Positions 20,038 through 37,888 of a stretch of DNA of 38,205 nt are shown here, piece after piece (the first letter of the stretch is position 1; each line of letters begins with the position of its first letter). The notes under the pieces are model-generated. The model had not been told where the DNA came from, ran no database searches, and saw only the letters and a program-made list of their open reading frames with translations. The stretch is taken from contig JASEEV010000008.1 of NCBI GenBank assembly GCA_030019435.1, positions 9,546 through 47,750 on the forward strand, given 5' to 3'. A program made the translations under genes and the position numbers. This stretch comes from Methanocellales archaeon (lineage in GTDB: Archaea; Halobacteriota; UBA148).

Positions 20038-20338
20038 CCTTTTACAAACTCTCCTGGATTAAGTCGAAAATCGAAGATTTTCAGACTGTTAGAAACCCCG
20101 AAGGGTTTCAACTTATCACTGAATTGGCTGCGATGGTCGCCCCAGCGTTTAACATGCTATTAACTCCCGTGTGAACGTTGTCGCCCATGATCACACCAAG
20201 TTTTCTTCTTCCCGAATCGACGAGCTTGCCCTTTATCATGACCCTGGTGTTTTTCATCGAATCGATGATTGGCGACCTTGGTTCCAGCACCAAGATTGTA
20301 GTTAGTCCCGATGATGCTATGCACGTCCTTTTTTGGAT
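20038..20338 (-). pseudogene. Remnant of the 3' end of a glmU-like gene
   Basis: The minus strand matches the last 75 codons or so of the intact gene at 28,993-30,186 (IIGTNYNLGAGTKVANHRFD-type segment, then MIKGKLVDSGRRKLGVIMGD, SMLNAGATI and the terminal PGEFVK), but with one frameshift. A 50-base hairpin repeat interrupts it eight codons before the end. It begins about ten bases after the hepT stop and ends about eight bases before the gmd start region, the same order (glmU end, then SDR start) as elsewhere in the island. Confidence 0.85.
20063..20112. repeat. Hairpin repeat, form A+D
   Basis: Two dyads in a row: one with stem AAAATC and loop GAAG (20,063-20,086) and one reading GAAACCCCGAAGGGTTTC (20,091-20,109). 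It sits inside the glmU remnant between GGATT and TTATCAC. Confidence 0.6.
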
Positions 20339-20752
20339 TCATTTTTTAACGACATCTTTTACTATGTCTACAAATTGCTTGACTACCTCTATCCTCTTAG
20401 ACACATCAAACACATCTTTTTCTGTCAGGTCGTAGTACTCATGTGATAACAAGTTCCTATAAAATACTAAATTGGATAATCTCTTCTCCAATCCCCCCTC
20501 GATAAATTTATTTTTCGCTAGTAATCTAAAAATCTCTCTGTAAGTAGAGGGCATACCAAGATCGTTCGCCACCACCATTTCTTCTCCCAAATCTATAGTT
20601 CTATTGAGAATGGAGAACAAAACCATCGATAACGAGTAAAAATTTTTCTTATCCTCCAAATCCCCTATTTCCTTTATATCTAATCCTTCCAAATCTCTGA
20701 AATATTTTTCAATATCGCTTATTATCTTCCCGATTCTCTCCGTATCATACAT
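20339..20752 (-). CDS. hepT: HepT-like HEPN RNase toxin (DUF86)
   Basis: About 137 residues, all-alpha. The HEPN active-site motif R-x4-H-x-Y is present as RNLLSHEY near residue 103, where Arg and His cut RNA and the Tyr is the AMPylation target in known HepT proteins. It lies downstream of mntA. ATG 20,752 follows the mntA stop with GGTGA upstream; an in-frame GTG at 20,761 is the alternative. This is the toxin of the MNT/HEPN system, kept silent when MntA adds AMP units to it. Its copy at 24,647 is identical in protein sequence. Confidence 0.9.
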   Translation of the reverse strand: MYDTERIGKIISDIEKYFRDLEGLDIKEIGDLEDKKNFYSLSMVLFSILNRTIDLGEEMVVANDLGMPSTYREIFRLLAKNKFIEGGLEKRLSNLVFYRNLLSHEYYDLTEKDVFDVSKRIEVVKQFVDIVKDVVKK

Positions 20753-20753
20753 T

Positions 20754-21116
20754 TCATTCACCCAAGATACGGGAGCAGTACCTCTTAATCATCGGCTGAA
20801 CATCTAAATAGGATTTGAGGATCTCTGCTTTAACCCTCTGCAATGTTAGATCATCTTTTTTATACAAAATTTTCCCCTCTTTTAAAACCCTAAATTGTAT
20901 CATTGGTGGAAGGTCCCAGAATATGGATATATCTATTTTTTTAGATGAATTGCTCAATATTTCTTCTTTTACTTTTTTTGGGATATCCCTATCTGTGAGC
21001 ACACAGATGTCTATGTCGGAAAATGGCTTTACACTGCCTTTGACCCTAGAGCCGAACAGGTATATTGCCTCAACCTCATCCTTCTTCAATTCATCTATTA
21101 CCTTATCAATCTCCAT
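20754..21116 (-). CDS. mntA: MntA-like nucleotidyltransferase antitoxin
   Basis: 120 residues. The minimal nucleotidyltransferase signature G-S-x10-D-x-D is intact in LFGSRVKGSVKPFSDIDICV, with a third acidic residue likely in KIDISIFWD. In characterised pairs MntA uses ATP to polyadenylylate the HepT active-site tyrosine and so neutralises it. The ATG at 21,116 has a GAGGCGAT-like site upstream. The gene runs directly into hepT as one operon. Confidence 0.9.
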   Translation of the reverse strand: MEIDKVIDELKKDEVEAIYLFGSRVKGSVKPFSDIDICVLTDRDIPKKVKEEILSNSSKKIDISIFWDLPPMIQFRVLKEGKILYKKDDLTLQRVKAEILKSYLDVQPMIKRYCSRILGE

Positions 21117-21192
21117 TTCATCGCCTCTTATTTAATCTCCAATCTTGAAATATTTAAGTCTTCTCCGGTTTATCCCAACGCTTGATGCAACT

Positions 21193-21217
21193 CATTTCAC
21201 AAACTCCCCTGGATTTA
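21193..21217 (-). pseudogene. Tiny glmU 3'-end scar without the hairpin repeat
   Basis: These 25 bases read Ile-Asn-Pro-Gly-Glu-Phe-Val-Lys and a stop, the last codons of the glmU-like gene, directly after the DUF3368 stop. GGATTTATCAC appears here uninterrupted, whereas other scars have the hairpin repeat between GGATT and TTATC. It looks like the empty site for that repeat. Confidence 0.6.
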
Positions 21218-21724
21218 TCACTGAATCTCCCTCTCGATGGTCTTTCTGGCATCCTCATAAACACCCACACTGAGCCACATGACCACTGCCAGTTTATCCA
21301 GAGCGTCCAAAGCCTCGTTCTTCGAGATTTTCTGTACTTTCGCAGCCCTGATCAAGACCCCAATCGAACCGATAACCTCCAATCCTAAGTCAATCGCAAA
21401 CCTCCTTGCTGCAAGATCATCGAGAAGGATTGGACATCTCCTTCTTCTTGCGAGCATTATTGCAATCGCCTCCCCAATTTCTATACCCACCCTTTCTGCA
21501 ATTTCTTTTACCTTATCGTTGATATCGTGATCAATTACGATCCATCCGTTCTCTATTTCATTCTCTATCAAAAATGCATCCGCCATTCCTTCTTCCTTTC
21601 CTCGATCGACAACCTCTTTCTTGGCGGCATAAGGTATAACTACCTCTCCAAACAACTCTTTTAGAAGCTTTAACTTGCCTATTCTCGCGAGGTGTATCAA
21701 TGGACCTGAATTGCTGATGATCAT
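21218..21724 (-). CDS. DUF3368 PIN-like toxin
   Basis: About 168 residues. The fold is PIN-like: IISNSGPLIHLARIGKLKLL with the first acidic position replaced by Asn/Ser as usual for DUF3368, GEAIAIMLARRR as the second site, and LLDDLAARRFAIDLGL plus GSIGVLIRAA as the third. These proteins pair with UPF0175 proteins in archaea and cyanobacteria and are taken as RNase toxins. ATG 21,724 overlaps the antitoxin stop as ATGA, so I prefer it to the ATG at 21,739. The copy at 25,526 is identical. Confidence 0.88.
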   Translation of the reverse strand: MIISNSGPLIHLARIGKLKLLKELFGEVVIPYAAKKEVVDRGKEEGMADAFLIENEIENGWIVIDHDINDKVKEIAERVGIEIGEAIAIMLARRRRCPILLDDLAARRFAIDLGLEVIGSIGVLIRAAKVQKISKNEALDALDKLAVVMWLSVGVYEDARKTIEREIQ

Positions 21725-22023
21725 TCTTGCATGGCCCATTGAACGTCCACATCCAAATCCTCTTTTTCATATCGAAAAGGGATGTTTTTCTTCTTTAATT
21801 CTTCCAGTGCTCCCCTATATGTCATTCCAGCCATTCCCGCTGCTTTCCAAAGAGATACCTTCCCCTCACCATACGATTCTAATGCCTTTTTGATACGATA
21901 TTCTCTCAAGGCATTCCCCAGGAGTTTGCGCAGCATCGTACCCTTATCGATGGCCTCCAATTTGCACGCCTCTTCAATATCATGCAAGTATTCTTCTGGC
22001 AGTCTGACAGATATTGTTCTCAT
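21721..22023 (-). CDS. UPF0175 family antitoxin
   Basis: About 100 residues. The N-terminal RTISVRLPEEYLHDIEEAC resembles a ribbon-helix-helix start, and KVSLWKAAGMAGMTYRGALE is the helix-turn-helix typical of UPF0175; the C-terminus (IPFRYEKEDLDVDVQW) is the toxin-contacting tail. ATG 22,023 has AGGTG six bases upstream. A TATA-like CTTAAGTATAC near 22,060-22,070 lies about 40 bases upstream. It probably represses its own operon. Confidence 0.87.
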   Translation of the reverse strand: MRTISVRLPEEYLHDIEEACKLEAIDKGTMLRKLLGNALREYRIKKALESYGEGKVSLWKAAGMAGMTYRGALEELKKKNIPFRYEKEDLDVDVQWAMQE

Positions 22024-22151
22024 GTTTTTCACCTACGTTACATCTTGTTATAATGTATACTTAAGGGTTTGGATGTACTTATTTGAATCCATGCATGACA
22101 AGGGACGGTATCTTTAAAAGCAAGAAATTCTCCTCTTTCGAGAGCTCTTGC

Positions 22152-22168
22152 CCTTGACATGTTGTCAA
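22152..22168. repeat. Short perfect palindrome
   Basis: CTTGAC, five bases, GTCAAG. It lies between the UPF0175 promoter and the SDR scar and could be an operator or a hairpin. It is also in copy 2 at 26,460-26,476. The rest of 22,024-22,511 holds only scars and the hairpin repeat. Confidence 0.4.
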
Positions 22169-22196
22169 GCACTGACTATTTCATCGCCAGCGAAAT

Positions 22197-22246
22197 ATTC
22201 CGCAGTATGAGAGCCCATTAAATCCTGCTCCATATGTGACTAATAT
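22197..22246 (-). pseudogene. Remnant of the 5' end of an SDR epimerase gene
   Basis: The minus strand reads ILVTYGAGFNGLSYCG, a decayed form of [15 protein letters not shown]-type dinucleotide-binding starts seen in the intact SDR at 36,388-37,338. No further homology follows. Confidence 0.55.
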
Positions 22247-22291
22247 TTTTTCTGCCAATTTTGTCACCTATCACAAAAATCTTTTACATAG

Positions 22292-22503
22292 TTTTACAAA
22301 CTCTCCTGGATTAAGTCGAAAATCGAAAATTTTCAGACTGTCGCAGATTGCAAATCTGCTAGAGTTCACAACTCATGGAGTTGGAACAGTTAGAAACCCC
22401 GAAGGGATTCAACTTATCGCTGAATTGGCTCTAATAGTGGCGCCAGCGTTTAACATGCTGTTGATGCCTGTACGCACGTCGTCTCCCATGATCACGCCAA
22501 GCT
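22292..22503 (-). pseudogene. Remnant of the 3' end of a glmU-like gene
   Basis: From eight bases after the vapC stop the minus strand reads LGVIMGDDVRTGINSMLNAG and more of the glmU tail, including bases the same as in the intact gene. It is split by a 99-base hairpin repeat and closes with PGEFVK. The SDR 5' scar follows about 45 bases on. Confidence 0.85.
22315..22413. repeat. Hairpin repeat, long form A+B+C+D
   Basis: Four successive dyads: AAAATCGAAAATTTT; GCAGATTGCAAATCTGC; an imperfect dyad around CAACTCATGGAGTTG; and GAAACCCCGAAGGGATTC. It occupies the same position in the glmU scar as the shorter forms, so size varies by whole hairpins. Confidence 0.6.
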
Positions 22504-22511
22504 TACCATGT

Positions 22512-23006
22512 TCATCCCCATCGAACTATATCAGGGACCAAATCAAAGTCATCGTCATATGATGCGATGTCATTGATTTTTAATTCTTTCATCGTTGCAA
22601 CATGAATCGCATCCCTCGGAAAAAGACCCATCCTCATCACGTCAACGAACGTCCCGATCGTTCTCTCTGGCACGGGGACTACTTTCAGTTTGCTGAACGA
22701 AGCAATCCAGTCTATGATCTCCCCTGCATCATCGCAGTATTTTTTTATTTTCTCTGGGCTATCTCTCATGACATCTGCTATGTGCAAATTCTCACGTATC
22801 TTCATAAGTGCACCAATGTAATTAAAAACTATCTCATCTACAACGAGAACAGATATGATGCCTTCAAATTCTTTATCTGCCAGTCGCTGAAAGAAATCTT
22901 CCGTCTTCTCATTGACCCTTGGATCATCTGAGCCCAGGAGATACTTGAGAAAAATCGTGGCATCAATATAGATTTTGTCGCCGCTAAACTGGTCTATTGG
23001 GTTCAC
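22512..23006 (-). CDS. vapC: PIN-domain RNase toxin (VapC-like)
   Basis: About 164 residues. IYIDATIFLKYLL gives the first catalytic Asp, VDEIVFNY the Glu, FPRDAIHVATM the second Asp and IASYDDDFDLV the last acidic pair, so the PIN site is complete. It should cleave RNA with Mg2+ when its antitoxin is lost. GTG 23,006 follows the antitoxin stop with GGTGA four bases upstream and gives an N-terminus like that of the deleted PIN gene at 37,497; an ATG at 23,042 would overlap the antitoxin by 32 bases. The copy at 26,820 is identical. Confidence 0.88.
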   Translation of the reverse strand: MNPIDQFSGDKIYIDATIFLKYLLGSDDPRVNEKTEDFFQRLADKEFEGIISVLVVDEIVFNYIGALMKIRENLHIADVMRDSPEKIKKYCDDAGEIIDWIASFSKLKVVPVPERTIGTFVDVMRMGLFPRDAIHVATMKELKINDIASYDDDFDLVPDIVRWG

Positions 23007-23010
23007 ATTT

Positions 23011-23262
23011 TCACCGCTGATATTCAGCTTTTTCCATTTCATCTCTGAACCGCTTGAACTCTTTTTCGCTCATTCTCATGCCAAGGCGGAGTTCTTCACC
23101 TTTTTTCATGGGATTCACCTTTCGCTTGATTATGAGTTCGTCCTCTTGGATCTCGATTGTGAGCGTATCCCCTTCCTCAATGCCCCATTCTTCCCTTATG
23201 ACTTTTGGCAATGTCACCTGACCTCTTTTTCCAACATACCACTTGCTTTTGATGGCACTCAT
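23011..23262 (-). CDS. AbrB/MazE-type antitoxin
   Basis: 83 residues. The swapped-hairpin AbrB DNA-binding domain is clear: YVGKRGQVTLPKVIREEWGI then EGDTLTIEIQEDELIIK. The C-terminal helix (EKEFKRFRDEMEKAEYQR) would bind the PIN toxin encoded next. The ATG has GGTGAT upstream. It differs from its copy at 27,319 by a single residue (Asn versus Asp before PMKK). Four TCAGAA-type boxes lie upstream. Confidence 0.9.
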   Translation of the reverse strand: MSAIKSKWYVGKRGQVTLPKVIREEWGIEEGDTLTIEIQEDELIIKRKVNPMKKGEELRLGMRMSEKEFKRFRDEMEKAEYQR

Positions 23263-23285
23263 GAAATCACCAGCTAAAAATACTT

Positions 23286-23347
23286 CGTTCTGATATATAA
23301 GTTTATCTGAATTCTTTTTTATTCAGAATAATAATAGTTTTCAGAAT
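23286..23347. promoter_or_regulatory. Promoter with four TTCTGA/TCAGAA boxes, likely AbrB operator
   Basis: Boxes at 23,287-23,294, 23,306-23,314, 23,322-23,329 and 23,340-23,347 share the core CTGA/TCAG in both orientations, around a TATA-like TTATATAT. This is a good candidate for autoregulation by the adjacent AbrB protein. Confidence 0.5.
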
Positions 23348-23388
23348 ATCATTTAAATGATTATGAGTTCTTAGATTCGCTTGACACA

Positions 23389-23475
23389 ACTCCTTTCACA
23401 GACTCTCCTGGATTAAGTCGAAAATCGAAGGGTTTCAACTTATCGCTGAATTGGCTGCGATGATGAACGGACAAA
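23389..23475 (-). pseudogene. glmU 3'-end scar with a shortened hairpin repeat
   Basis: A short glmU tail remnant (AANSA, then the repeat, then PGEFVK-like codons with a changed base). Upstream, 23,476-23,504 reads a stretch with KGAG before a stop, like the start of the flippase fragment at 28,589-28,756. Confidence 0.6.
23417..23439. repeat. Hairpin repeat, deleted form (A/D hybrid)
   Basis: This is the left half of hairpin A joined to the right half of hairpin D at their common CGAAG loop. It is what a deletion between the two loops of form A+D would leave. Confidence 0.55.
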
Positions 23476-23506
23476 ACCAGACTTCTGCATCTATCCTGCT
23501 CCTTTC

Positions 23507-23917
23507 CTATGCAATTTCTTTTGGGTCGACTCGCTGGATGTCTGGTAAGACATCAAAGTCAGCATCATAAGAGAGTATCTTCTCTATACCATTTTCCATC
23601 ATGCATTGATATGCCAACGCATCATCAAAATTCAGCCCAAAATTTTTCATATGAGATGTTGCGCTTATCCTACTGCCCAGAGTCATTGGCTGTACCGTTA
23701 ATCCCTCATATCTGAGAAGCCCGGAAAGAAAGATCGCAATGTCCCTCCATCCCAATTTGTAGTTCTCCATGACCACTATGACGGCATCAACATGGAAATC
23801 AGTTATCATCCCCCTTAATTCACCGTCTTTGAATCTGCTTAGAACATCCTTGGAGTGCATGCCCTTGGGTTGGCCTAATTCAACCTCCAAGAATATGTTG
23901 GCGTCGACCAGATACAT
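23507..23917 (-). CDS. vapC: PIN-domain toxin VapC
   Basis: About 136 residues. YLVDANIFLEVEL holds the first Asp, FHVDAVIVVMENY the acidic middle position, LNFDDALAYQCM the third and ILSYDADFDVLP the last, so the active site is complete. ATG 23,917 starts one base after the antitoxin stop (23,919). It lies in the unique 0.8 kb between the two copies of the large repeat and has no duplicate in the window. Confidence 0.88.
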   Translation of the reverse strand: MYLVDANIFLEVELGQPKGMHSKDVLSRFKDGELRGMITDFHVDAVIVVMENYKLGWRDIAIFLSGLLRYEGLTVQPMTLGSRISATSHMKNFGLNFDDALAYQCMMENGIEKILSYDADFDVLPDIQRVDPKEIA

Positions 23918-23918
23918 C

Positions 23919-24197
23919 CTATTGCCCCATAGCCCTTCTTGATCTGATTTTAGCCACCTCATGTTGTAGCTCGACGCCTGATTTATCTACATGTGAGAGC
24001 ATGCCCCAAATCGACTCCACTGGATCTTCTGGTGGCTCCATTATTTTGAGGGCTTCTTTCGTCCTGGTGGCCCATTCATCTAGAGCTTTTTCTGCGGCAA
24101 GACTAATAGATCCCTTTTTGTACCCGAAACTGCTCATAGCCGCCTCTCTAAATTTTTTTTCCACATCATCTGAGATACAAACTTTTATACCACCCAT
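23919..24197 (-). CDS. VapB-type antitoxin
   Basis: About 92 residues from ATG 24,197. The N-terminus KVCISDDVEKKFREAA resembles a short ribbon-helix-helix domain, followed by YKKGSISLAAEKALDEW and a charged tail reaching the toxin start. The same frame stays open up to 24,338, but that extension is SDR sequence plus promoter, so the long chimeric reading is an artefact. Its likely promoter is the AT-rich 24,209-24,240 stretch with a doubled TACCTTAA. Confidence 0.75.
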   Translation of the reverse strand: MGGIKVCISDDVEKKFREAAMSSFGYKKGSISLAAEKALDEWATRTKEALKIMEPPEDPVESIWGMLSHVDKSGVELQHEVAKIRSRRAMGQ

Positions 24198-24248
24198 CTT
24201 AATTCCCAATGATATTAAGGTATTAAGGTATAAAAATCCTTCTCTGAT

Positions 24249-24329
24249 GACTTCGTTCTTGCCCAACAAAAACTCCGCCAAGTGAGAGCCGACGAAACCG
24301 GATATTCCCGTTATCAATACTCTTTCCAT
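24249..24329 (-). pseudogene. 5' remnant of an SDR gene (gmd/rmd-like start)
   Basis: Reads MERVLITGISGFVGSHLAEF and six more residues, then runs out where the VapB promoter begins. The first nine codons equal those of gmd, but GFVGSHL shows a different SDR, perhaps a GDP-sugar reductase or epimerase. The TA pair probably landed just inside this gene. Confidence 0.7.
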
Positions 24330-24345
24330 TTTCTCCACCTACTTC

Positions 24346-24646
24346 CCTTTTACAAACTCTCCTGGATTAAGTCGAAAATCGAAGATTTTCAGACTGTTAG
24401 AAACCCCGAAGGGTTTCAACTTATCACTGAATTGGCTGCGATGGTCGCCCCAGCGTTTAACATGCTATTAACTCCCGTGTGAACGTTGTCGCCCATGATC
24501 ACACCAAGTTTTCTTCTTCCCGAATCGACGAGCTTGCCCTTTATCATGACCCTGGTGTTTTTCATCGAATCGATGATTGGCGACCTTGGTGCCAGCACCA
24601 AGATTGTAGTTGGTTCCGATGATGCTATGCACGTCCTTTTTTGGAT
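24346..24646 (-). pseudogene. glmU 3'-end remnant, copy 2
   Basis: Same as the remnant at 20,038-20,338 apart from a few bases; contains the A+D hairpin repeat. Confidence 0.85.
24371..24420. repeat. Hairpin repeat, form A+D, copy 2
   Basis: Same as 20,063-20,112, offset 4,308. Confidence 0.6.
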
Positions 24647-25060
24647 TCATTTTTTAACGACATCTTTTACTATGTCTACAAATTGCTTGACTACCTCTAT
24701 CCTCTTAGACACATCAAACACATCTTTTTCTGTCAGGTCGTAGTACTCATGTGATAACAAGTTCCTATAAAATACTAAATTGGATAATCTCTTCTCCAAT
24801 CCCCCCTCGATAAATTTATTTTTCGCTAGTAATCTAAAAATCTCTCTGTAAGTAGAGGGCATACCAAGATCGTTCGCCACCACCATTTCTTCTCCCAAAT
24901 CTATAGTTCTATTGAGAATGGAGAACAAAACCATCGATAACGAGTAAAAATTTTTCTTATCCTCCAAATCCCCTATTTCCTTTATATCTAATCCTTCCAA
25001 ATCTCTGAAATATTTTTCAATATCGCTTATTATCTTCCCGATTCTCTCCGTATCATACAT
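24647..25060 (-). CDS. hepT: HepT-like HEPN toxin, second copy
   Basis: Protein identical to the one at 20,339-20,752, including the RNLLSHEY active site. With its own intact mntA upstream it should work independently, or cross-talk fully with the first copy. Confidence 0.9.
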   Translation of the reverse strand: MYDTERIGKIISDIEKYFRDLEGLDIKEIGDLEDKKNFYSLSMVLFSILNRTIDLGEEMVVANDLGMPSTYREIFRLLAKNKFIEGGLEKRLSNLVFYRNLLSHEYYDLTEKDVFDVSKRIEVVKQFVDIVKDVVKK

Positions 25061-25061
25061 T

Positions 25062-25424
25062 TCATTCACCCAAGATACGGGAGCAGTACCTCTTAATCAT
25101 CGGCTGAACATCTAAATAGGATTTGAGGATCTCTGCTTTAACCCTCTGCAATGTTAGATCATCTTTTTTATACAAAATTTTCCCCTCTTTTAAAACCCTA
25201 AATTGTATCATTGGTGGAAGGTCCCAGAATATGGATATATCTATTTTTTTAGATGAATTGCTCAATATTTCTTCTTTTACTTTTTTTGGGATATCCCTAT
25301 CTGTGAGCACACAGATGTCTATGTCGGAAAATGGCTTTACACTGCCTTTGACCCTAGAGCCGAACAGGTATATTGCCTCAACCTCATCCTTCTTCAATTC
25401 ATCTATTACCTTATCAATCTCCAT
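25062..25424 (-). CDS. mntA: MntA-like antitoxin, second copy
   Basis: Protein identical to 20,754-21,116 with the complete G-S-x10-D-x-D motif. It forms an operon with the second hepT. Confidence 0.9.
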   Translation of the reverse strand: MEIDKVIDELKKDEVEAIYLFGSRVKGSVKPFSDIDICVLTDRDIPKKVKEEILSNSSKKIDISIFWDLPPMIQFRVLKEGKILYKKDDLTLQRVKAEILKSYLDVQPMIKRYCSRILGE

Positions 25425-25500
25425 TTCATCGCCTCTTATTTAATCTCCAATCTTGAAATATTTAAGTCTTCTCCGGTTTATCCCAACGCTTGATGCAACT

Positions 25501-25525
25501 CATTTCACAAACTCCCCTGGATTTA
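25501..25525 (-). pseudogene. glmU 3'-end scar without hairpin repeat, copy 2
   Basis: Same as 21,193-21,217. Confidence 0.6.
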
Positions 25526-26032
25526 TCACTGAATCTCCCTCTCGATGGTCTTTCTGGCATCCTCATAAACACCCACACTGAGCCACATGACCACTGCCAG
25601 TTTATCCAGAGCGTCCAAAGCCTCGTTCTTCGAGATTTTCTGTACTTTCGCAGCCCTGATCAAGACCCCAATCGAACCGATAACCTCCAATCCTAAGTCA
25701 ATCGCAAACCTCCTTGCTGCAAGATCATCGAGAAGGATTGGACATCTCCTTCTTCTTGCGAGCATTATTGCAATCGCCTCCCCAATTTCTATACCCACCC
25801 TTTCTGCAATTTCTTTTACCTTATCGTTGATATCGTGATCAATTACGATCCATCCGTTCTCTATTTCATTCTCTATCAAAAATGCATCCGCCATTCCTTC
25901 TTCCTTTCCTCGATCGACAACCTCTTTCTTGGCGGCATAAGGTATAACTACCTCTCCAAACAACTCTTTTAGAAGCTTTAACTTGCCTATTCTCGCGAGG
26001 TGTATCAATGGACCTGAATTGCTGATGATCAT
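25526..26032 (-). CDS. DUF3368 PIN-like toxin, second copy
   Basis: Protein identical to 21,218-21,724; overlaps the upstream antitoxin stop as ATGA. Confidence 0.88.
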   Translation of the reverse strand: MIISNSGPLIHLARIGKLKLLKELFGEVVIPYAAKKEVVDRGKEEGMADAFLIENEIENGWIVIDHDINDKVKEIAERVGIEIGEAIAIMLARRRRCPILLDDLAARRFAIDLGLEVIGSIGVLIRAAKVQKISKNEALDALDKLAVVMWLSVGVYEDARKTIEREIQ

Positions 26033-26331
26033 TCTTGCATGGCCCATTGAACGTCCACATCCAAATCCTCTTTTTCATATCGAAAAGGGATGTTTTTCTT
26101 CTTTAATTCTTCCAGTGCTCCCCTATATGTCATTCCAGCCATTCCCGCTGCTTTCCAAAGAGATACCTTCCCCTCACCATACGATTCTAATGCCTTTTTG
26201 ATACGATATTCTCTCAAGGCATTCCCCAGGAGTTTGCGCAGCATCGTACCCTTATCGATGGCCTCCAATTTGCACGCCTCTTCAATATCATGCAAGTATT
26301 CTTCTGGCAGTCTGACAGATATTGTTCTCAT
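26029..26331 (-). CDS. UPF0175 antitoxin, second copy
   Basis: Protein identical to 21,721-22,023, with the same TATA-like box and AGGTG site. Confidence 0.87.
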   Translation of the reverse strand: MRTISVRLPEEYLHDIEEACKLEAIDKGTMLRKLLGNALREYRIKKALESYGEGKVSLWKAAGMAGMTYRGALEELKKKNIPFRYEKEDLDVDVQWAMQE

Positions 26332-26504
26332 GTTTTTCACCTACGTTACATCTTGTTATAATGTATACTTAAGGGTTTGGATGTACTTATTTGAATCCAT
26401 GCATGACAAGGGACGGTATCTTTAAAAGCAAGAAATTCTCCTCTTTCGAGAGCTCTTGCCCTTGACATGTTGTCAAGCACTGACTATTTCATCGCCAGCG
26501 AAAT

Positions 26505-26554
26505 ATTCCGCAGTATGAGAGCCCATTAAATCCTGCTCCATATGTGACTAATAT
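26505..26554 (-). pseudogene. SDR 5'-end remnant, copy 2
   Basis: Same as 22,197-22,246. Confidence 0.55.
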
Positions 26555-26599
26555 TTTTTCTGCCAATTTTGTCACCTATCACAAAAATCTTTTACATAG

Positions 26600-26811
26600 T
26601 TTTACAAACTCTCCTGGATTAAGTCGAAAATCGAAAATTTTCAGACTGTCGCAGATTGCAAATCTGCTAGAGTTCACAACTCATGGAGTTGGAACAGTTA
26701 GAAACCCCGAAGGGATTCAACTTATCGCTGAATTGGCTCTAATAGTGGCGCCAGCGTTTAACATGCTGTTGATGCCTGTACGCACGTCGTCTCCCATGAT
26801 CACGCCAAGCT
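26600..26811 (-). pseudogene. glmU 3'-end remnant, copy 2
   Basis: Same as 22,292-22,503, interrupted by the long hairpin repeat. Confidence 0.85.
26623..26721. repeat. Hairpin repeat, long form, copy 2
   Basis: Same as 22,315-22,413. Confidence 0.6.
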
Positions 26812-26819
26812 TACCATGT

Positions 26820-27314
26820 TCATCCCCATCGAACTATATCAGGGACCAAATCAAAGTCATCGTCATATGATGCGATGTCATTGATTTTTAATTCTTTCAT
26901 CGTTGCAACATGAATCGCATCCCTCGGAAAAAGACCCATCCTCATCACGTCAACGAACGTCCCGATCGTTCTCTCTGGCACGGGGACTACTTTCAGTTTG
27001 CTGAACGAAGCAATCCAGTCTATGATCTCCCCTGCATCATCGCAGTATTTTTTTATTTTCTCTGGGCTATCTCTCATGACATCTGCTATGTGCAAATTCT
27101 CACGTATCTTCATAAGTGCACCAATGTAATTAAAAACTATCTCATCTACAACGAGAACAGATATGATGCCTTCAAATTCTTTATCTGCCAGTCGCTGAAA
27201 GAAATCTTCCGTCTTCTCATTGACCCTTGGATCATCTGAGCCCAGGAGATACTTGAGAAAAATCGTGGCATCAATATAGATTTTGTCGCCGCTAAACTGG
27301 TCTATTGGGTTCAC
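26820..27314 (-). CDS. vapC: PIN-domain toxin, second copy
   Basis: Protein identical to 22,512-23,006 with all PIN acidic residues. Confidence 0.88.
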   Translation of the reverse strand: MNPIDQFSGDKIYIDATIFLKYLLGSDDPRVNEKTEDFFQRLADKEFEGIISVLVVDEIVFNYIGALMKIRENLHIADVMRDSPEKIKKYCDDAGEIIDWIASFSKLKVVPVPERTIGTFVDVMRMGLFPRDAIHVATMKELKINDIASYDDDFDLVPDIVRWG

Positions 27315-27318
27315 ATTT

Positions 27319-27570
27319 TCACCGCTGATATTCAGCTTTTTCCATTTCATCTCTGAACCGCTTGAACTCTTTTTCGCTCATTCTCATGCCAAGGCGGAGT
27401 TCTTCACCTTTTTTCATGGGATCCACCTTTCGCTTGATTATGAGTTCGTCCTCTTGGATCTCGATTGTGAGCGTATCCCCTTCCTCAATGCCCCATTCTT
27501 CCCTTATGACTTTTGGCAATGTCACCTGACCTCTTTTTCCAACATACCACTTGCTTTTGATGGCACTCAT
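27319..27570 (-). CDS. AbrB-type antitoxin, second copy
   Basis: Differs from the 23,011-23,262 protein at one residue (Asp instead of Asn before PMKK), the only protein-level difference I found between the two repeat copies. Confidence 0.9.
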   Translation of the reverse strand: MSAIKSKWYVGKRGQVTLPKVIREEWGIEEGDTLTIEIQEDELIIKRKVDPMKKGEELRLGMRMSEKEFKRFRDEMEKAEYQR

Positions 27571-27593
27571 GAAATCACCAGCTAAAAATACTT

Positions 27594-27655
27594 CGTTCTG
27601 ATATATAAGTTTATCTGAATTCTTTTTTATTCAGAATAATAATAGTTTTCAGAAT
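27594..27655. promoter_or_regulatory. AbrB promoter/operator boxes, copy 2
   Basis: Same four TTCTGA/TCAGAA boxes as 23,286-23,347. Confidence 0.5.
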
Positions 27656-27696
27656 ATCATTTAAATGATTATGAGTTCTTAGATTCGCTTGACACA

Positions 27697-28316: not shown

Positions 28317-28320
28317 GAGA

Positions 28321-28756: not shown

Positions 28757-28847
28757 TAGATCATTCCTTCAATCCTTACAAATCCACATAAAGGTAACAG
28801 TTTTAGATAAGTGAACTACTTAGCTCGTATAAAAATCTTCCAACGAG

Positions 28848-30272: not shown

Positions 30273-30289
30273 ATATAGTGGTGATAACG

Positions 30290-30553
30290 TTGGCTACGGT
30301 TAAGATGTCTTCTAGAGGGCAGGTAGTGATACCCCAACAATTACGAGAAGGGCTTGGTCTGGTTGAGGGTTGCAAATTAAAGGTGTACCAAGAGGGGAAA
30401 AAGATCATCATGGTGGCAGAACCCGAAAGCAAGCCAGAAGAATTATTTGTAGCTGCCAGTAAAGATGCCACAAAAAAGGCTATGGAAATCTCACATGAAC
30501 TCGATGAGACGAAACTGAGAGAACTTCTGAAAGAGATCGGCGTCAAAGCATGA
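30290..30553 (+). CDS. AbrB-type antitoxin
   Basis: About 87 residues. ATVKMSSRGQVVIPQQLREG and LGLVEGCKLKVYQEGKKIIM make the AbrB domain; the tail MEISHELDETKLRELLKEIG is a toxin-binding helix. TTG 30,290 is preceded by GGTGAT (30,280-30,285), better than the GTG codons at 30,278 and 30,281, which are part of that site. It is divergent from the glmU-like gene. Confidence 0.87.
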   Translation: MATVKMSSRGQVVIPQQLREGLGLVEGCKLKVYQEGKKIIMVAEPESKPEELFVAASKDATKKAMEISHELDETKLRELLKEIGVKA

Positions 30554-31005
30554 GCAAAGTCGTATTAGACACCGGAGTATGGGTGGAGTACATCAACAAA
30601 AACGGCAGATATCATGTGCAAGCTAAAACGATTATCGATCGAATAGATGATGGTGAAATAGTTGCGATGGTCAGTCCAATAACCCTAACCGATATATACT
30701 ATGTTTCTGAGAGGGTTTACAAAGAAGTGTTTGGAGCAAACATAGCAAAACAAAAAGCCGAAAAGCTTTATGATTTCGTCTACTATCACCCGAACACAGA
30801 AGTTGCGTCTATCGACTACAAACTAGGCCTAAGGGCTGGAGAGATAAAATCAGAACATAACATCGCCATATCCGACTGCTATTCGCTTGCTTTATCTGAA
30901 AAGGAGGAATGCCCAGCTATATTCAGGCACGTTGAGAGTGAAATGTTACCGTGTCTTGGAGATCTGCAAAAAAGATTCAACTTGATATTTCTCGAAAAAT
31001 ATTAG
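30550..31005 (+). CDS. vapC: PIN-domain toxin VapC
   Basis: 151 residues. VVLDTGVWVEYIN carries the first Asp, ITLTDIYYVSERV the middle acidic site, NIAISDCYSLALSE the second Asp; the usual final Asp region is less clear (IFRHVESEM gives a Glu). The ATG overlaps the antitoxin stop as ATGA. One of few plus-strand genes in the island. Confidence 0.87.
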   Translation: MSKVVLDTGVWVEYINKNGRYHVQAKTIIDRIDDGEIVAMVSPITLTDIYYVSERVYKEVFGANIAKQKAEKLYDFVYYHPNTEVASIDYKLGLRAGEIKSEHNIAISDCYSLALSEKEECPAIFRHVESEMLPCLGDLQKRFNLIFLEKY

Positions 31006-31021
31006 TATGGAATGAAGTAAA

Positions 31022-31450
31022 TTACTGACCTAATCTAGTTACGATTCCATCAAAGCTGGCATCAAAGCTGGCGATATAATCAATGCTTCTTTTGTGCATT
31101 AGACTAATTGAAGTGCAGTCAGTAAAACTCAGCCTTTTTTCCGGATAGTGTTGAAATAGATTCCATGCATCATCAAAGACATCTCTTGTCACCTGCAAGA
31201 TGCTTACGAACCGCAGAATCTTCTTTTTTTCGTCACCGAGGATCAGCGTTCCAGCCTCATGTGCCTTCGCCAGTCTTTTGGTTCGACGCAATGCAACGGT
31301 GACGACCTCATCAAAAACATAATCCGATGTGAAAGGTGCCCCGTATTCGTCCTTCATTATGCTTTCGAGAAGACTGGTAGCATCCCCGTGACGCTCATCA
31401 CTTCTATTAACGTACGCTACAAAAACGCCAGTATCGATGAATACGCTCAT
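31022..31450 (-). CDS. vapC: PIN-domain toxin VapC
   Basis: 142 residues. SVFIDTGVFVAYVNRSDERH has the first Asp, YVFDEVVTVAL the Glu, LSFTDCTSISLM the second Asp and IASFDASFDGI the last, a complete active site. The start overlaps the antitoxin stop (TAATG). It is convergent with the 30,550 toxin gene, 16 bases apart. Confidence 0.9.
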   Translation of the reverse strand: MSVFIDTGVFVAYVNRSDERHGDATSLLESIMKDEYGAPFTSDYVFDEVVTVALRRTKRLAKAHEAGTLILGDEKKKILRFVSILQVTRDVFDDAWNLFQHYPEKRLSFTDCTSISLMHKRSIDYIASFDASFDGIVTRLGQ

Positions 31451-31725
31451 TATTGTGCTCCATAGAGGACTTCGTCAACTTCTTTTTCCCTGGTTACAAC
31501 ACCCCAATCGCTTTGGAGTTTTCTAAACTTGTCTACATCCCTATTTGATAATGGCAGGCTAACATATCTGGTGAAAAATTCTCCTTTAGACGATTCGACG
31601 AAGTCGAGTAGCTTTGAAAATAATTCTTGTTGCGTCACTTTTTTACCAACCTTCAGCGTAAACTCAGATTGCAACAGGTCAAATTCTTTTTTATCGTCCT
31701 CTCTGATTTTTATTGTCGTATTCAT
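31450..31725 (-). CDS. Antitoxin of the PIN pair, RHH-like
   Basis: 91 residues. TTIKIREDDKKEFDLLQSEF followed by KKVTQQELFSKLLDFVES looks like a ribbon-helix-helix domain (strand, helix, helix); the C-terminal WGVVTREKEVDEVLYGA would bind the toxin. Adjacent to, and translationally coupled with, the PIN gene. Confidence 0.75.
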   Translation of the reverse strand: MNTTIKIREDDKKEFDLLQSEFTLKVGKKVTQQELFSKLLDFVESSKGEFFTRYVSLPLSNRDVDKFRKLQSDWGVVTREKEVDEVLYGAQ

Positions 31726-33579: not shown

Positions 33580-33650
33580 AAACCACTCTATATTCAAGCT
33601 GCATCTATTAACCTTTGGTTTCCAGCTCCAAATCTTCCCGGCTTTACCTA
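33580..33650 (-). pseudogene. SDR 3'-end remnant
   Basis: Reads AGKIWSWKPKVN and then LNIEWF in a shifted frame, against [13 protein letters not shown] and LNKTIEWY in the intact SDR at 36,388. It lies about 40 bases upstream of glmS. The rest of 33,651-33,799 shows nothing convincing. Confidence 0.6.
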
Positions 33651-33799
33651 GACGATTCTTCACTGTTCGATTTATGGAACATGTGTACGATATTACGAAC
33701 ACTCACATTTAGATGTTTCATAGATACTTGACTTCCGACCACGGCACCCTATTTACTATATCATGAGTCCACATAATGTAATTAATGTAATATTTTTTT

Positions 33800-33953
33800 A
33801 TTGAGTATTCTATCATTATTTAAAGTATCTAAATTTTTATAGACTTCCCATTTCCCATTGGCATCATACCCTATCCTCATAGCTTCTTATACAATAATTT
33901 TTCACACAGATGCGAGCCTATGAATCCTGCTCCGCCAGTTACAAGGTTTTCAT
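33800..33953 (-). pseudogene. Internally deleted SDR gene: 5' and 3' ends only
   Basis: The 5' part (33,877-33,953) reads MKTL then, after one missing base, [17 protein letters not shown], almost the start of the intact SDR. After about 25 bases the 3' part (33,800-33,844) matches that gene's last codons KSIKI and 20 bases beyond its stop (compare 36,365-36,406). So the middle of an SDR copy, about 0.9 kb, is gone. Its ATG overlaps the stop of the membrane gene upstream. Confidence 0.7.
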
Positions 33954-33958
33954 ATTTT

Positions 33959-34314
33959 TCATATTATCCTACCACCAATAACTAATCGAGTAATGATTCC
34001 AACAATCATCGCAAAGGCTATGCTTAGAAGCGTGCCAATCAAATAGTACTCAGCCATTTTCCTATCCTTTAATTCATTGAATCTCGCAATGGATTTGGCA
34101 GCAAAAATAACTGTTATTGCTGTGTATTGATCGACCAACACAAATGTCAAAACTATAATTCTCTCAATTACTCCTATCACCATACCAGCACCTTTCAAGC
34201 CACCGCCCAACCCTTTCTCATATCTCCTGAGCATTAGTTTAATGAAATAAGCACCGATGACGCTTACGGTGATATATGCGAAATTATCACAGCAATTTTG
34301 AAGGTATAATTCAT
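33959..34314 (-). CDS. Small membrane protein, DUF3307-like C-terminal region, frameshifted
   Basis: From ATG 34,314, one base after the SatD gene's stop and with GGAG upstream, the reading MNYTFKIAVII breaks at about 34,280. Adding one base in the short A/T run joins it to FAYITVSVIGAYFIKLMLRR and then to the open frame 34,234-33,959. That frame contains GVIERIIVLTFVL, FAAKSIARFNELKDRKMAEY and YLIGTLLSIAFAM, which match my memory of the C-terminal half of DUF3307 proteins. Three to four helices. No DUF3307 N-terminal domain exists here. It is probably the partner of the SatD protein. Confidence 0.6.
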
Positions 34315-34315
34315 C

Positions 34316-35011
34316 TCATCTTTCTCCTTTATCAGCCATTTCTGGCTTATATCCTTCTGTCAACCATTTTTGGCTTATAAAATCCCCAAAACTCCTCTCC
34401 GCCCCCTCTACCATCTTGTATTTGCTCCTCTTTAATATTTTAGAAATAGTTTGTTTTGTTATCTTCATGTCGTCCGCTATCTCTTCTAATGTGATATCAC
34501 CTTTCTTACTTTTTGCCCTTTTGTAGTGCGTTATAACTTCTTTCTGCCTTCCAGTCCAACTCCACATCACATCTGCCATGAAATTCAATAAACACGTGAC
34601 AATCCCATCGATTTCCCTCTCACTTTTGAATTTAATCCATACATTCTCTTTTTTTGCCTGCTCTAAAGCATCAAATGCCTTATGAAACGCCTCACCATCC
34701 ATCTCCCCTACGTTCTCGCTTAAATGTGTGGATATGCTACCAACACCAACTCCTAAATAGAACTGATGACCGATGTTTTCAAAAAGCACATAATAAATAT
34801 CAAATAAATATCTAGGGGAGGAGAGCATTCCCTGAAAACTGTCCCCACGCACAACTATAAATTCTGCGACTATCGAATCCTCAAATCTTTTATTGATTAT
34901 CGTTAAGGCGTTCTTTAAACCCTCTTGAATTTTCGCCCTATCTTCCAACTTCCTTGAAGACTTCAGATCCCCAGTTACAACGACATATCTATCTTGCAAT
35001 GTTGGAACCAT
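34316..35011 (-). CDS. SatD-family protein with C-terminal helix-turn-helix
   Basis: About 231 residues. YVVVTGDLKSSRKLEDRAKI, then FIVVRGDSFQGML and FYLGVGVGSISTHLSENVGE, then GEAFHKAFDALEQAK fit the SatD family. The C-terminus (WTGRQKEVITHY, then ITLEEIADDMKITKQTISKI) is a helix-turn-helix. The order of a GD-x-F-x-G turn and a following G-V-G-x-G-x-I strand recalls palm-type nucleotidyl cyclase folds, but no catalytic assignment can be made from one sequence. Start ATG 35,011 has GGTG five bases upstream. It is coupled to the small membrane protein gene and lies between SDR scars. Confidence 0.75.
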   Translation of the reverse strand: MVPTLQDRYVVVTGDLKSSRKLEDRAKIQEGLKNALTIINKRFEDSIVAEFIVVRGDSFQGMLSSPRYLFDIYYVLFENIGHQFYLGVGVGSISTHLSENVGEMDGEAFHKAFDALEQAKKENVWIKFKSEREIDGIVTCLLNFMADVMWSWTGRQKEVITHYKRAKSKKGDITLEEIADDMKITKQTISKILKRSKYKMVEGAERSFGDFISQKWLTEGYKPEMADKGER

Positions 35012-35030
35012 CATATCACCCAGTTTCAAT

Positions 35031-35066
35031 TAAAATTTGCATCTAAATCAACCTTTTACTCCCAAC
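35031..35066 (-). pseudogene. SDR 3'-end scar
   Basis: Reads W-E-stop-KVDLDANFN, against [12 protein letters not shown] in the intact SDR. It begins at the stop of the DUF4143 gene and runs to the SatD gene. Confidence 0.6.
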
Positions 35067-36360
35067 CTACATATAACATGCCGGAATGAATTTTATTAAG
35101 GTTTTTTCGAGTTTGATCTCACCCCAGTAATCCTTTGTGATGATTAAAGCTCTTCCTGGGTTATAAGCTGAGATAAAACTTCTAAAACTTTTTGAGATGG
35201 CTGGCTTTTTGAACGTGGCATATTTGACTTCTACCGGGATTACTTCACCTCCAACATTTAAAATAAAGTCAACTTCTGCTTTTCCAAGGGTTCTCCAGTA
35301 ATTTACCTTTTCTGTCAAGTGAGACAGCTGATTTAAAGCAAAGTTTTCAACCAAGGCTCCAGCATCAACCCTTTTTTCCAGCTCGTTAAAGTTGTTTATC
35401 ACATAATTTCTTAAACCAGGATCAACGAAGTAGACTTTTGGGTTCTTCCTCAGTTCTGTTCTAAGATTTCTATAAAAGGGTCGTATATTTCTTATAACGA
35501 AGGTTTCTTCTAAAACCTCTAGAAGCCCAAGAATTTCCTTATAATAAGAGTTGCAAAGAGATGCCAACTCATTGTAGTTGATCATACCACCCAACTGAGA
35601 ACTCAGCAAGGTTGTAAGCCTTCTAAATTTGAATACATCGTGAATTTTCAGCAGCTCTATTATCTCTCTCCCTATATAAGTCTCATAGATATTCTTTATT
35701 ATCACCCGCTTGGTCTCTTCATCTCTGGTTTTAATGACCTCTGGATATCCACCAAATGTGATGAACTCCTCCAACAAATTTTCAAAATCCTTGAGGAATA
35801 TATCACTTTCTACTGTAAAATTCTCTCCTTTCGAAATGAAATTGTTAACAAGCTCGTTTCTTTTTTTGTATATCCTCCAAAGCCTCTCGTCCCTTGCCTT
35901 TAGAAACTCACCGAGGTTAAAAGGAAATAGATAAAAGGAGAACATCCTTCCAACCAAATACTTAGATGTTGCACCTGTCAGCTCCAATGAAGAAGACCCA
36001 GTGACTATAAATTTTACATTTTCAGTTATGTCGTATAAGAGTTTTAGCTTCTGCCCCCCCCTCCTCCACATAGTGGAGCTCATCAAGAAGAAAATAGTAT
36101 TTCTGTTTCTCATCCAGAACAAAACTTTTAATAAATCCCTCTGGGTCCAAGCTGAATTTTTCCAGATTCTCCCTGTCTTCAAATGTGATAAAGATTATGT
36201 TTTTAGGATTTGCCTTCTTCGTTTTTATTAGCCAATCCCTTAGCATGAACAAAATAGTTGTCTTTCCCGCTTGTCTGGGTCCCTTTATTATGTAAACTTC
36301 CTTTCTGCCCATCCATTTCTTGAGTTGCTCAAGAATCTCTCTTTCATAATACTTTTTCAT
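35067..36360 (-). CDS. DUF4143-type AAA ATPase, split by a frameshift in a G8 tract
   Basis: Two overlapping frames make one gene of about 430 codons. The first (36,360 to about 36,055) has the Walker A loop IKGPRQAGKTT and the Walker B stretch YYFLLDELHYVEE. After a run of eight G (plus C run 36,054-36,061) the other frame continues GQKLKLLYDITENVKFIVTG, SSSLELTG and the DUF4143 domain with a PD-(D/E)xK-like EVDFILNVGGEVIPVEVKYA. Seven G would join them in the usual family spacing, so one extra G breaks the gene. Such ATPases are frequent stand-alone accessory genes in archaea; their function is unclear. SDR 3'-end sequence lies on both sides of it. Confidence 0.85.
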
Positions 36361-36364: not shown

Positions 36365-36406
36365 TATTCTATCATTATTTAAAGTATTTAAATTTTTATA
36401 GACTTC
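36365..36406. repeat. 42-base direct repeat shared with 33,800-33,844
   Basis: The last codons of the SDR gene and the bases beyond its stop (ATTCTATCATTATTTAAAGT and following) recur almost unchanged at 33,800. They mark a second, lost SDR copy. Confidence 0.8.
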
Positions 36407-37338
36407 TTATTCATGTACCATTCTATCGTTTTATTCAAGCCTGCATCTAAATCAACCTTTGGCTCCCAGCTCAGGATTTCCCTTGCCTTTGAAATATCCG
36501 GACATCTCTGCTTTGGATCGTCCTCGGGCAATTTCTTAAATATGATTTTTGAATTTGAGTTGGTGAGCTTCTTGATCCTTTCAGCCAATTCGAGCACTGT
36601 TATCTCGTTTTGGCTGCCCAGATTGACGACCTCACCACTCATCTCTTTTGAGAACATCGCCTTGCATATGCCATTTACCATATCAGAGATGTAACAAAAA
36701 CTTCTCGTTTGAGAACCATCGCCGTAGACCGTAATTGGCTCATTGGCTAGGGCTTGAGTGATGAAGTTAGGAATGGCTCTACCATCATCTTTTCTCATCC
36801 TTGGTCCGTACGTGTTGAATATTCTGACGATTCGCACATCTAGACCATATTTCCGATGATATGCCATCGTTAATGCCTCTGCAAACCTCTTCGCCTCATC
36901 ATAACAACTTCTTGGACCGATGGGGTTTACGTTGCCCAAATAATCCTCCCGCTGTGGATGTACTTGAGGGTCGCCATAGACCTCAGATGATGATGTCAGC
37001 AAGAATACGGCTCCTTTTTCCTTAGCCAGTTCCAATGCATTATGAGTACCAGATGAGCCTGTCAATAATGTCTCTATCGGCATTTCTTGGTAATCCACTG
37101 GGCTGGCAGGGCTTGCCAGGTGGAAAAGATGATTGATTTCCTCCTCGATCGCTAATGGCTTGGTTATATCGTGCTGTAAGTAAGCGAACCTATCATCGCT
37201 CAGCAAGCGCTGGATGTTGTCCTCGTCTCCAGTAGACAAGTCATCAAGACAGATGACCTTATAGCCTTCATCTAGCAGTTTTTCACACAGATGTGAGCCT
37301 ATAAATCCTGCTCCACCTGTTACAAGCATTGTTTTCAT
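36388..37338 (-). CDS. UDP-glucuronate decarboxylase-like SDR (UXS family)
   Basis: About 316 residues. [19 protein letters not shown] is the NAD loop; [50 protein letters not shown] with the YxxxK-type pair, [19 protein letters not shown] and [16 protein letters not shown] are close to UDP-xylose synthases rather than 4-epimerases. It would convert UDP-glucuronate to UDP-xylose. ATG 37,338 has GGTGA six bases upstream. Its two ends are the source type for most SDR scars. Confidence 0.88.
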
Positions 37339-37356
37339 TTGATTCACCACTTGTGA

Positions 37357-37497
37357 TCAAGGTTTCCACACCTTAATCTCTTTAACTCTGTCAAAATCGG
37401 GGTCGTTCGTTGCGATGTTCTCAATGTTGTTCTCGTCCATTATTGCCAGGTTTATTGCATCGACGAAGATTCTGCTTCCATCTGGGATGTCTTTCAA
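37357..37497 (-). pseudogene. PIN toxin with in-frame internal deletion (46 residues left)
   Basis: Starting at TTG 37,497 with GGGAGG six bases upstream, it reads LKDIPDGSRIFVDA and then at once INLAIMDENNIENIATNDPD and a short tail. The first part is a PIN start, the second a PIN end (D-A-I-x-L-A and the ATxDxDFD line). About 80-90 residues between two similar GATGCAA sites are missing, which suggests deletion between short repeats. The toxin should be dead, though its antitoxin gene is intact. Confidence 0.75.
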
Positions 37498-37498
37498 G

Positions 37499-37702
37499 TT
37501 AATCCTCCCACATCGAAAGGGCTAACTCCTTGCTCTCTGCTATTTCTTTTGCCATTTTTGGATCTATGTTGATACGTCCTGTTATCTCATCCACTATGCT
37601 CATCTTTCTCTTTATTTCTATCTCGATTTCCTCATTTTCTTTTAAGTCCAGTTTTACAGATGGTTTGATCACACCATCCTTGTATACCGCCGAGATTGGC
37701 AT
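37499..37702 (-). CDS. DUF104 (AF2212-like) antitoxin
   Basis: About 67 residues. PISAVYKDGVIKPSVKLDLK and ENEEIEIEIKRK are the DUF104 beta-barrel; the rest is an acidic helix (MAKEIAESKELALSMWED) that would bind a PIN toxin. ATG 37,702 matches the family's usual start. It is followed after one base by the deleted toxin gene. Confidence 0.85.
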   Translation of the reverse strand: MPISAVYKDGVIKPSVKLDLKENEEIEIEIKRKMSIVDEITGRINIDPKMAKEIAESKELALSMWED

Positions 37703-37791
37703 AATCTCAACTCCAAACACGATGTATACTCGTTATGTAGTAAAAAGGTTAGCTAATAAAACGATTTCATTTGTATTTTTGGTTTCAATGT

Positions 37792-37840
37792 GTCGCAGAT
37801 CGAAGATCTGCGAGAGTTGTAACCCCTATGGGATTTCAAC
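37792..37840. repeat. Hairpin repeat, form B+D'
   Basis: A perfect dyad CGCAGATCGAAGATCTGCG, then a second dyad around AACCCCTATGGGATT ending in TTTCAAC. Unlike the other copies it sits in an SDR 5' scar, not in a glmU scar, in the same orientation. Confidence 0.6.
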
Positions 37841-37849
37841 AAAGTAAAA

Positions 37850-37888
37850 AAACGATAAATCCTGCACCACCAGTCACGAGTATCTTCA
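37850..37888 (-). pseudogene. SDR 5'-end remnant cut near the hairpin repeat
   Basis: From an ATG at 37,888 with a strong GAGGTGAT site it reads [12 protein letters not shown], then turns into non-SDR sequence that leads into the hairpin repeat about ten bases on. Confidence 0.7.

Follow-up and report, generated by a model that had tools for sequence, protein, structure and literature searches.

How a small toxin-antitoxin (TA) pair can move when no mobile element carries it is, to our knowledge, an open question. It is raised here by a 38,205-nt stretch of a Methanocellales archaeon genome (the window; nt 9546–47750 of contig JASEEV010000008.1, named C86 below, of GCA_030019435.1, named G000, a fragmented assembly of 1.42 Mb in 87 contigs), in which TA pairs and other small cassettes are separated by short copies (scars) of the ends of a glmU-like gene and of SDR-family genes. 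The initial annotation placed these cassettes between copies of one gene junction; the scars were confirmed, the observation as a whole in part, and relatives carry cassette-free junctions. On balance, the arrays seem to result from homology-driven import of cassettes at gene ends followed by recombination between the copies, without a dedicated integrase, a reading that is favoured but not proven.

Comparisons below refer mainly to G005, a single-contig (closed) genome of 1,067,436 bp from another family of the same order. The methanogen marker gene mcrA, looked for as a clue to taxonomy, is absent. The glmU and SDR sequences of the window are as follows.

nt 18975–20030, minus strand: gmd (GDP-mannose dehydratase), intact (Pfam)
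nt 20038–20320, minus strand: glmU-tail scar B, before gmd (79% identity)
nt 21190–21226, minus strand: glmU-tail scar D, short, overlapping a toxin stop (second copy at nt 25498–25534)
nt 22219–22251, minus strand: SDR start remnant following scar C (alignment)
nt 22292–22504, minus strand: glmU-tail scar C, with extra hairpins
nt 23392–23462, minus strand: glmU-tail scar A (alignment)
nt 24264–24338, minus strand: start remnant of SDR' (rmd-like), after the second copy of scar B, 88% to the intact SDR' of G005
nt 24346–24628, minus strand: second copy of scar B, then the SDR' start (alignment)
nt 27700–27770, minus strand: second copy of scar A (blastn)
nt 28640–28757, minus strand: start remnant of a Wzx-flippase gene (nt 28681–28761 are a 78% DNA match to the start of a flippase-like gene in stretch L194 of G005)
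nt 28930–28983, minus strand: SDR start remnant, frameshifted, 10 bp past glmU (sequence and alignment)
nt 28993–30186, minus strand: GlmU-like gene, intact, source of the tail copies (Pfam NTP_transferase and Hexapep; no other strong copy in the genome)

The proposed alignment of minus-strand scars to glmU and SDR was borne out by blastn, with E-values down to 1e-43, and the SDR start remnant does follow the intact glmU at the distance first described. Scar B matches the intact gene at 78% identity over 203 bp (nt 20120–20320, E 1e-43) and scar C at 90% over 84 bp (nt 22421–22504), and individual scars differ from it by 10–22%. The final 22 bp of glmU are present at all six places listed for such scars, among them a further copy of scar C at nt 26600, and at lower identity also at nt 21196–21226; the scar core, GACTTAATCCAGGAGAGT, occurs 7 times against 0.03 expected. 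A hairpin-rich insert, missing from the intact glmU, is common to scars A, B and C, which therefore descend at least in part from one another. The insert is shortened in A, and in B and C it reads GAAACCC/GAATCCC TTCG GGGTTTC and, further on, GAAAATCTTCGATTTTC. That these hairpins belong to a dispersed genomic repeat was rejected, as the insert is found at this locus only in the G000 genome.

The SDR ends required correction. A supposed scar at nt 20021 is the start of the intact gmd. At nt 24329 there is indeed an SDR start remnant, although of a different SDR, SDR'. The ends at nt 33580, 33800–33953, 35031 and 37850, which had been assigned to the same SDR, belong to another gene at a second locus, SDR2 (see below). 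Scar D, the flippase-start remnant and a plus-strand AbrB/PIN pair had been overlooked. The cassettes around and between the scars are listed here.

nt 20309–21186, minus strand: MntA/HepT cassette, an 88% match to nt 5583–6455 of G005 stretch L194, ending at scars D and B
nt 21218–22032, minus strand: UPF0175 antitoxin and PIN/DUF3368-like toxin (Pfam: UPF0175 above cut-off, the toxin's PIN-TPR-GreABC and DUF3368 matches below their cut-offs)
nt 22512–23262, minus strand: AbrB/PIN cassette (Pfam MazE_antitoxin and PIN)
nt 23507–24251, minus strand: PINc cassette, an antitoxin-like open reading frame (ORF) and a PIN toxin (nt 23515–24251 are an 87% match to G005)
nt 27915–28563, minus strand: AbrB/MraZ-like antitoxin and PIN toxin (Pfam)
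nt 30278–31005, plus strand: oppositely oriented AbrB/PIN pair, located between glmU and glmS (PIN match at nt 40104–40466 of C86, plus strand; AbrB-like similarity, E 0.004)
nt 31022–31725, minus strand: PIN toxin (Pfam) and an upstream ORF without a Pfam match, between glmS and glmU

The last two are TA-like pairs arranged tail to tail between glmU and glmS (nt 30278–31725), with stops about 17 bp apart.

A spacing of about ten bases between toxin stops and scars had been reported. Most scars do begin 2–19 bp from the stop codon of a toxin or cassette or overlap it, the exception being the 3.5-kb copy described next, which starts 102 bp after the PIN stop at nt 27915. The limits of the MntA/HepT unit are set independently by its match in G005, and its ends are the starts of scars D and B. 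One ribbon-helix-helix (RHH)/PIN pair was found at three places in three species, with identity running from 41–46 bp before the antitoxin to 2 bp past the toxin stop, which explains why scars begin at toxin stops.

Part of the array has been doubled as a larger unit.

nt 19995–23505: 3,511-bp repeat, first copy (alignment)
nt 24303–27813: 3,511-bp repeat, second copy (99.77% identity; 8 differences, seven near the ends)

The copies are direct repeats separated by 797 bp, which hold the SDR' start and a PIN cassette. Scars A, B, C and D were thus each doubled through one event, and the scars at nt 24346, 26600 and 27697, initially counted as independent, lie within the second copy. Clustering of the differences at the repeat ends fits unequal crossing-over between two alleles, and also an assembler joining two strain variants.

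The second locus repeats the pattern with a different gene.

nt 33591–33961, minus strand: SDR2 copies by glmS (head copy nt 33898–33961; copy of the SDR2-end/ATPase-start junction nt 33788–33847; tail copy nt 33591–33628)
nt 33959–35029, minus strand: SatD gene (Pfam SatD) and a small membrane-like ORF without a Pfam match
nt 35038–35064, minus strand: SDR2 tail copy, 3 bp past the ATPase stop (alignment)
nt 35067–36360, minus strand: AAA_14/DUF4143 ATPase cassette (Pfam), probably frameshifted, as the gene is split over two overlapping reading frames
nt 36388–37350, minus strand: SDR2 gene, intact, source of this second set of copies (Pfam; 78% to G005)
nt 37855–37888, minus strand: scar formed by the native SDR2 head, which runs on without a break into the DUF2283 side, as it does in G005 (empty-site alignment)

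Stretch L194 of G005 provides the cassette-free arrangement at both the DUF2283/SDR2 and the SDR2/glmS junctions: DUF2283 lies directly before SDR2, and SDR2 directly before the head of glmS. Relative to this, the intact SDR2 of the window is preceded by the native SDR2 head scar and 504 bp, and glmS by 2.85 kb with the ATPase and SatD genes. The head scar agrees with the G005 resident allele, upstream sequence included; the intact SDR2 differs in both upstream sequence and N-terminus.

Further single-copy sites were seen elsewhere. In G006 (about 89% identical to G005) the argJ end is single with no cassette after it, and hardly anything separates alaS from the gene that comes next. Where G009 has two copies of a sequence around an 834-bp insert with an acylphosphatase-like gene, G008 has the single sequence, of about 52 bp; in the same region of these two genomes an insertion of IS200/IS605 type (insertion sequence type read from its ORFs) occurs without duplication. 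On contig C21 of G000 a DUF234 ATPase lies between two tails, and in G005 one tail joins the same two neighbouring cassettes. The MntA/HepT and PINc cassettes found in the window occur in G005 between a glmS head and a glmU tail. Between the families, cassettes are 85–96% identical, against a median of 71% for the DNA that these families share.

To describe how far the pattern extends, 26 stretches around PIN toxin genes (283 kb of G000) were compared with 13 control stretches (249 kb of G000) picked solely for the absence of PIN genes; other cassettes are present in the latter type of stretch (e.g. MNT/HEPN pairs in G005). Self-comparison gave 52 direct and no inverted repeat pairs in the PIN stretches, and 8 direct and 1 inverted in the controls. 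In G000, 18 of 48 PIN genes lie between direct repeats and none between inverted repeats. Direct repeats enclose 12% of random intervals taken from these stretches and 1.7% of those from the controls; the enrichment is a lower bound because the controls contain other cassettes. In G005 direct repeats bracket 6 of 31 PIN genes, again with no case of inverted bracketing, over a background of 3–4%. As to the abundance of PIN domains, there are 49 in G000, 1–3 in each of four relatives of the same family, and 35 in G005.

The bracketing repeats of G000 are the ends of various genes, PGF-CTERM, glmU and SDR among them. The array that stands out most clearly is that of contig C15, where the intact gene for a 523-amino-acid PGF-CTERM surface protein is followed by seven more copies of its tail (up to the last ~25 codons and a hairpin), which separate seven cassettes before the array finishes at a GTPase gene; these comprise MNT/HEPN-like pairs, a DUF4258 gene, two aspartyl-protease-like pairs, a DUF234 ATPase and an AbrB/PIN pair. 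All tails point in one direction and the cassettes either way, 3 of 7 being opposite to the tail on C15 and 2 of 3 on C75; comparable arrays occur on contigs C75 and C21. The anchors in G005 are the tails of alaS, argJ and a PGF-CTERM protease gene and the heads of an archease gene and a signal-peptidase-like gene. Thus, the special hotspot status that had been supposed for glmU-SDR is not supported, since this architecture recurs at numerous unrelated gene ends, both here and in other genera of the order, and about half of the scars first listed are second copies belonging to a larger repeat. Annotated cargo includes TA pairs, MNT/HEPN genes, DUF234 and DUF4143 ATPases, a P-type ATPase and SatD, and did not include a restriction-modification (R-M) system. 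The P-type cation ATPase gene (893 amino acids; nt 2090–5030 of stretch L215 of G005) lies beside a PII-like gene and between 48-bp direct repeats that are 96% identical, so the cargo is not TA alone.

The origin of the copies is indicated by where they differ from the intact genes. Self-duplication followed by decay would distribute differences evenly over codon positions, or at most at about 1:1:2 if the intact gene drifts too. Pooled differences between gene ends and copies were 34/26/98 at positions 1/2/3 (p=1e-13 against 1:1:1 and p=0.007 against 1:1:2, both rough values because the pooled tails are partly related); scar B alone shows 5/8/29, and the SDR' remnant, compared with the intact SDR' of G005, 0/3/7. 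As the differences are mainly at third codon positions, many of the copies are divergent functional alleles and not fresh self-duplications. This bias, together with the upstream sequence and N-terminus that distinguish the intact SDR2 from its head scar, marks several copies as foreign alleles, and these indicate homologous recombination with imported DNA. The homology-driven, integrase-free hotspot first suggested is therefore favoured by the divergent alleles, the cassette-free relatives and the lack of a nearby recombinase, with the qualification that the glmU-SDR junction is only one such site among many.

Scars, cassette limits, repeat orientation, cassette-free sites of relatives, the allelic divergence of several copies and near-identical cassettes in different families are direct observations; the recombination steps, their order and the enzymes involved we infer, as follows. 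A cassette would consist of a promoter-sized leader, an antitoxin and a toxin, or of a single ATPase, SatD or similar gene, and would arrive at a gene boundary on foreign DNA that also bears the orthologous gene end. The common gene end might then recombine homologously, either through single crossover of a circularised fragment or through one-sided, homology-facilitated illegitimate recombination (HFIR), and the resident and incoming versions would both be retained as direct repeats flanking the cassette. An existing scar would offer extra homology, by which more cassettes could be added, swapped or deleted through recombination between copies, and larger segments such as the 3.5-kb repeat could be duplicated in the same way. 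Selection may retain those insertions after which both neighbouring genes are still complete, and scars would in this way build up at gene 3' and 5' ends. There are precedents for both routes: in E. coli, single crossover of circular DNA leaves gene-end duplications of 109–950 bp (PMC3240628), and a process akin to HFIR has been proposed for immunity-gene arrays of Vibrio (PMC5361080).

Several observations weigh against homology-driven import. Most of the cassette-free sites could reflect either gain or loss of a cassette, and some cassettes have no flanking repeat (L203; the AbrB/PIN pair in L227 versus L231). The codon counts pool related tails and several of the cases are small, and a third-position bias of this kind could also arise if the intact gene had later been exchanged for another allele. 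Some repeat pairs are near-identical (155 bp at 99% in L232; 50 bp at 100% in L219), which fits fresh target duplication. Finally, the G000 assembly is fragmented, and its 3.5-kb repeat could be two joined strain variants.

Insertion with long, variable target duplication, in which a staggered or replication-associated break takes up a cassette, the gene end is directly duplicated and the resident-derived scars decay later, is a possible but rather unlikely origin for the arrays as a whole. It would account for direct repeats of about 25–300 bp, for single-copy sites in relatives, for both cassette orientations and for the L232 and L219 pairs, and target duplication on the order of 100 bp is known for R-M systems (PMC3874152; PMC3031569). 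It does not predict the foreign alleles indicated by the third-position bias and the SDR2 upstream and N-terminal difference. Target duplication may nevertheless be responsible for the seeding of arrays and for the near-identical pairs.

That the scars are leftovers of a once larger sugar or surface-protein gene set, of which the genes between toxin cassettes were deleted and only the ends remain, is improbable. G005 does retain just the glmS head and a glmU tail around MntA/HepT and PINc, and the flippase and SDR' starts persist in the window. Seven near-equal copies of one PGF-CTERM tail are not explained by it, nor are the single-copy sites at argJ and SDR2 in relatives, and locally it is refuted by the cassette-free junctions of relatives.

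Still less credence can be given to a site-specific element, integron-like or of the tyrosine-recombinase type, that uses gene ends as attachment sites carried by the cassettes. Cassette arrays split by a repeated site do resemble integron arrays, and archaeal integrons exist (PMC9668308). However, each locus has its own gene end, and cassettes lie both with and against the direction of the tail. Each genome has a single match to PF00589 (tyrosine recombinase), either on a different contig or away from the array stretches, and the window contig has none. A simple attC consensus scan of five repeats gave no convincing site: neither RYYYAAC nor GTTRRRY occurred in the C15 tail, and matches in the others were scattered. 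No shared terminal (inverted) repeats were seen, and the ends of 14 cassette copies (~10 types), compared by eye, had no common motif; one cassette family has an ATCAAA-like match at its two ends, which probably arose by chance. Hairpins as a general landing signal were rejected: 3 of 25 repeats reached P<=0.05, with a pooled p of 0.06 and a mean folding z of +0.3. Retroposition through mRNA seems unlikely, given that upstream of the antitoxin the cassettes retain an A/T-rich, TATA-like stretch, presumably a promoter.

An assembly artefact from mixed strains as the source of the repeats in the window, to which the 3.5-kb repeat with seven of its 8 differences near the ends and the division of the genome into 87 contigs might point, is very unlikely, as scars differ from the intact glmU by 10–22% and the pattern recurs in a single-contig genome.

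Homology-driven import thus remains the favoured account, and the arrays it would produce share features with three known systems. R-M genes insert with long, variable target duplication (Nobusato 2000; Furuta 2010; as summarised in PMC3874152), and according to that summary these are likewise selfish two-gene modules with ~100-bp direct repeats, single-copy sites in relatives and no transposase. In comparison with the cases summarised there, the cargo here is TA pairs and ATPases, a single target can hold as many as seven cassettes, duplication typically affects a gene end, and many copies appear to be foreign alleles. Orphan immunity-gene arrays of the type VI secretion system, and orphan tips of Rhs and contact-dependent inhibition loci (PMC5361080), also carry toxin-related modules that were inserted serially at the 3' end of a gene, together with remnants of displaced gene ends; the anchor there is the effector locus, whereas here unrelated host genes (glmU, PGF-CTERM proteins, argJ, alaS, archease) anchor TA pairs. 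Integrons and clusters of attC sites lacking integron-integrases (CALIN), including archaeal ones (PMC9668308), similarly have tandem small cassettes, many of them TA pairs, with a repeated site in between. Unlike these, the arrays described here have no integrase nearby, no attC consensus in the C15 tail, a locus-specific site and cassettes in both orientations. No description of such gene-end arrays around archaeal TA pairs was found in the open-access literature.

Only tentatively can it be suggested that archaea of this order generally hold gene-end arrays, in which conserved 3' ends of surface-protein and biosynthesis genes serve as reusable homologous landing pads on which TA and defence-like cassettes are gathered, exchanged and lost. 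If true, such arrays would correspond to integrons that need no integrase, perhaps with as yet unrecognised dedicated machinery. Sequence from several genomes shows where cassettes end and land, which sites are cassette-free and what the donor alleles are, so target duplication, single crossover and one-sided homology give distinct, testable predictions. Repeated gene-end fragments between toxin genes can be import footprints, and not decayed genes or assembly noise.

A few related arrangements were observed in other stretches. In the ANME-2 cluster archaeon WYZ-LMO14 (L029, nt 2664–2865), glmU (61% to that of the window) is followed directly by a SatD start remnant and then by a short sequence similar to a glmU tail, a hint that the process may not be confined to this order. 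An argJ-tail-like sequence lies upstream of an AbrB/PIN cassette in two genomes (L150, nt 6028–6168; L195, nt 6179–6319); the ORF lists around either copy contain no argJ, and the intact argJ of G005 is elsewhere. In L139, the same stretch as L166, repeats resembling those of CRISPR arrays (clustered regularly interspaced short palindromic repeats), CTTTCAATCC...GAAAC, flank an AbrB/PIN pair (nt 1310–1346 and 2225–2261). Within the window itself, a methyltransferase-like gene is present as a pair with 71% DNA identity (nt 4649–5314 and 15129–15795), both members lying in one sugar cluster.

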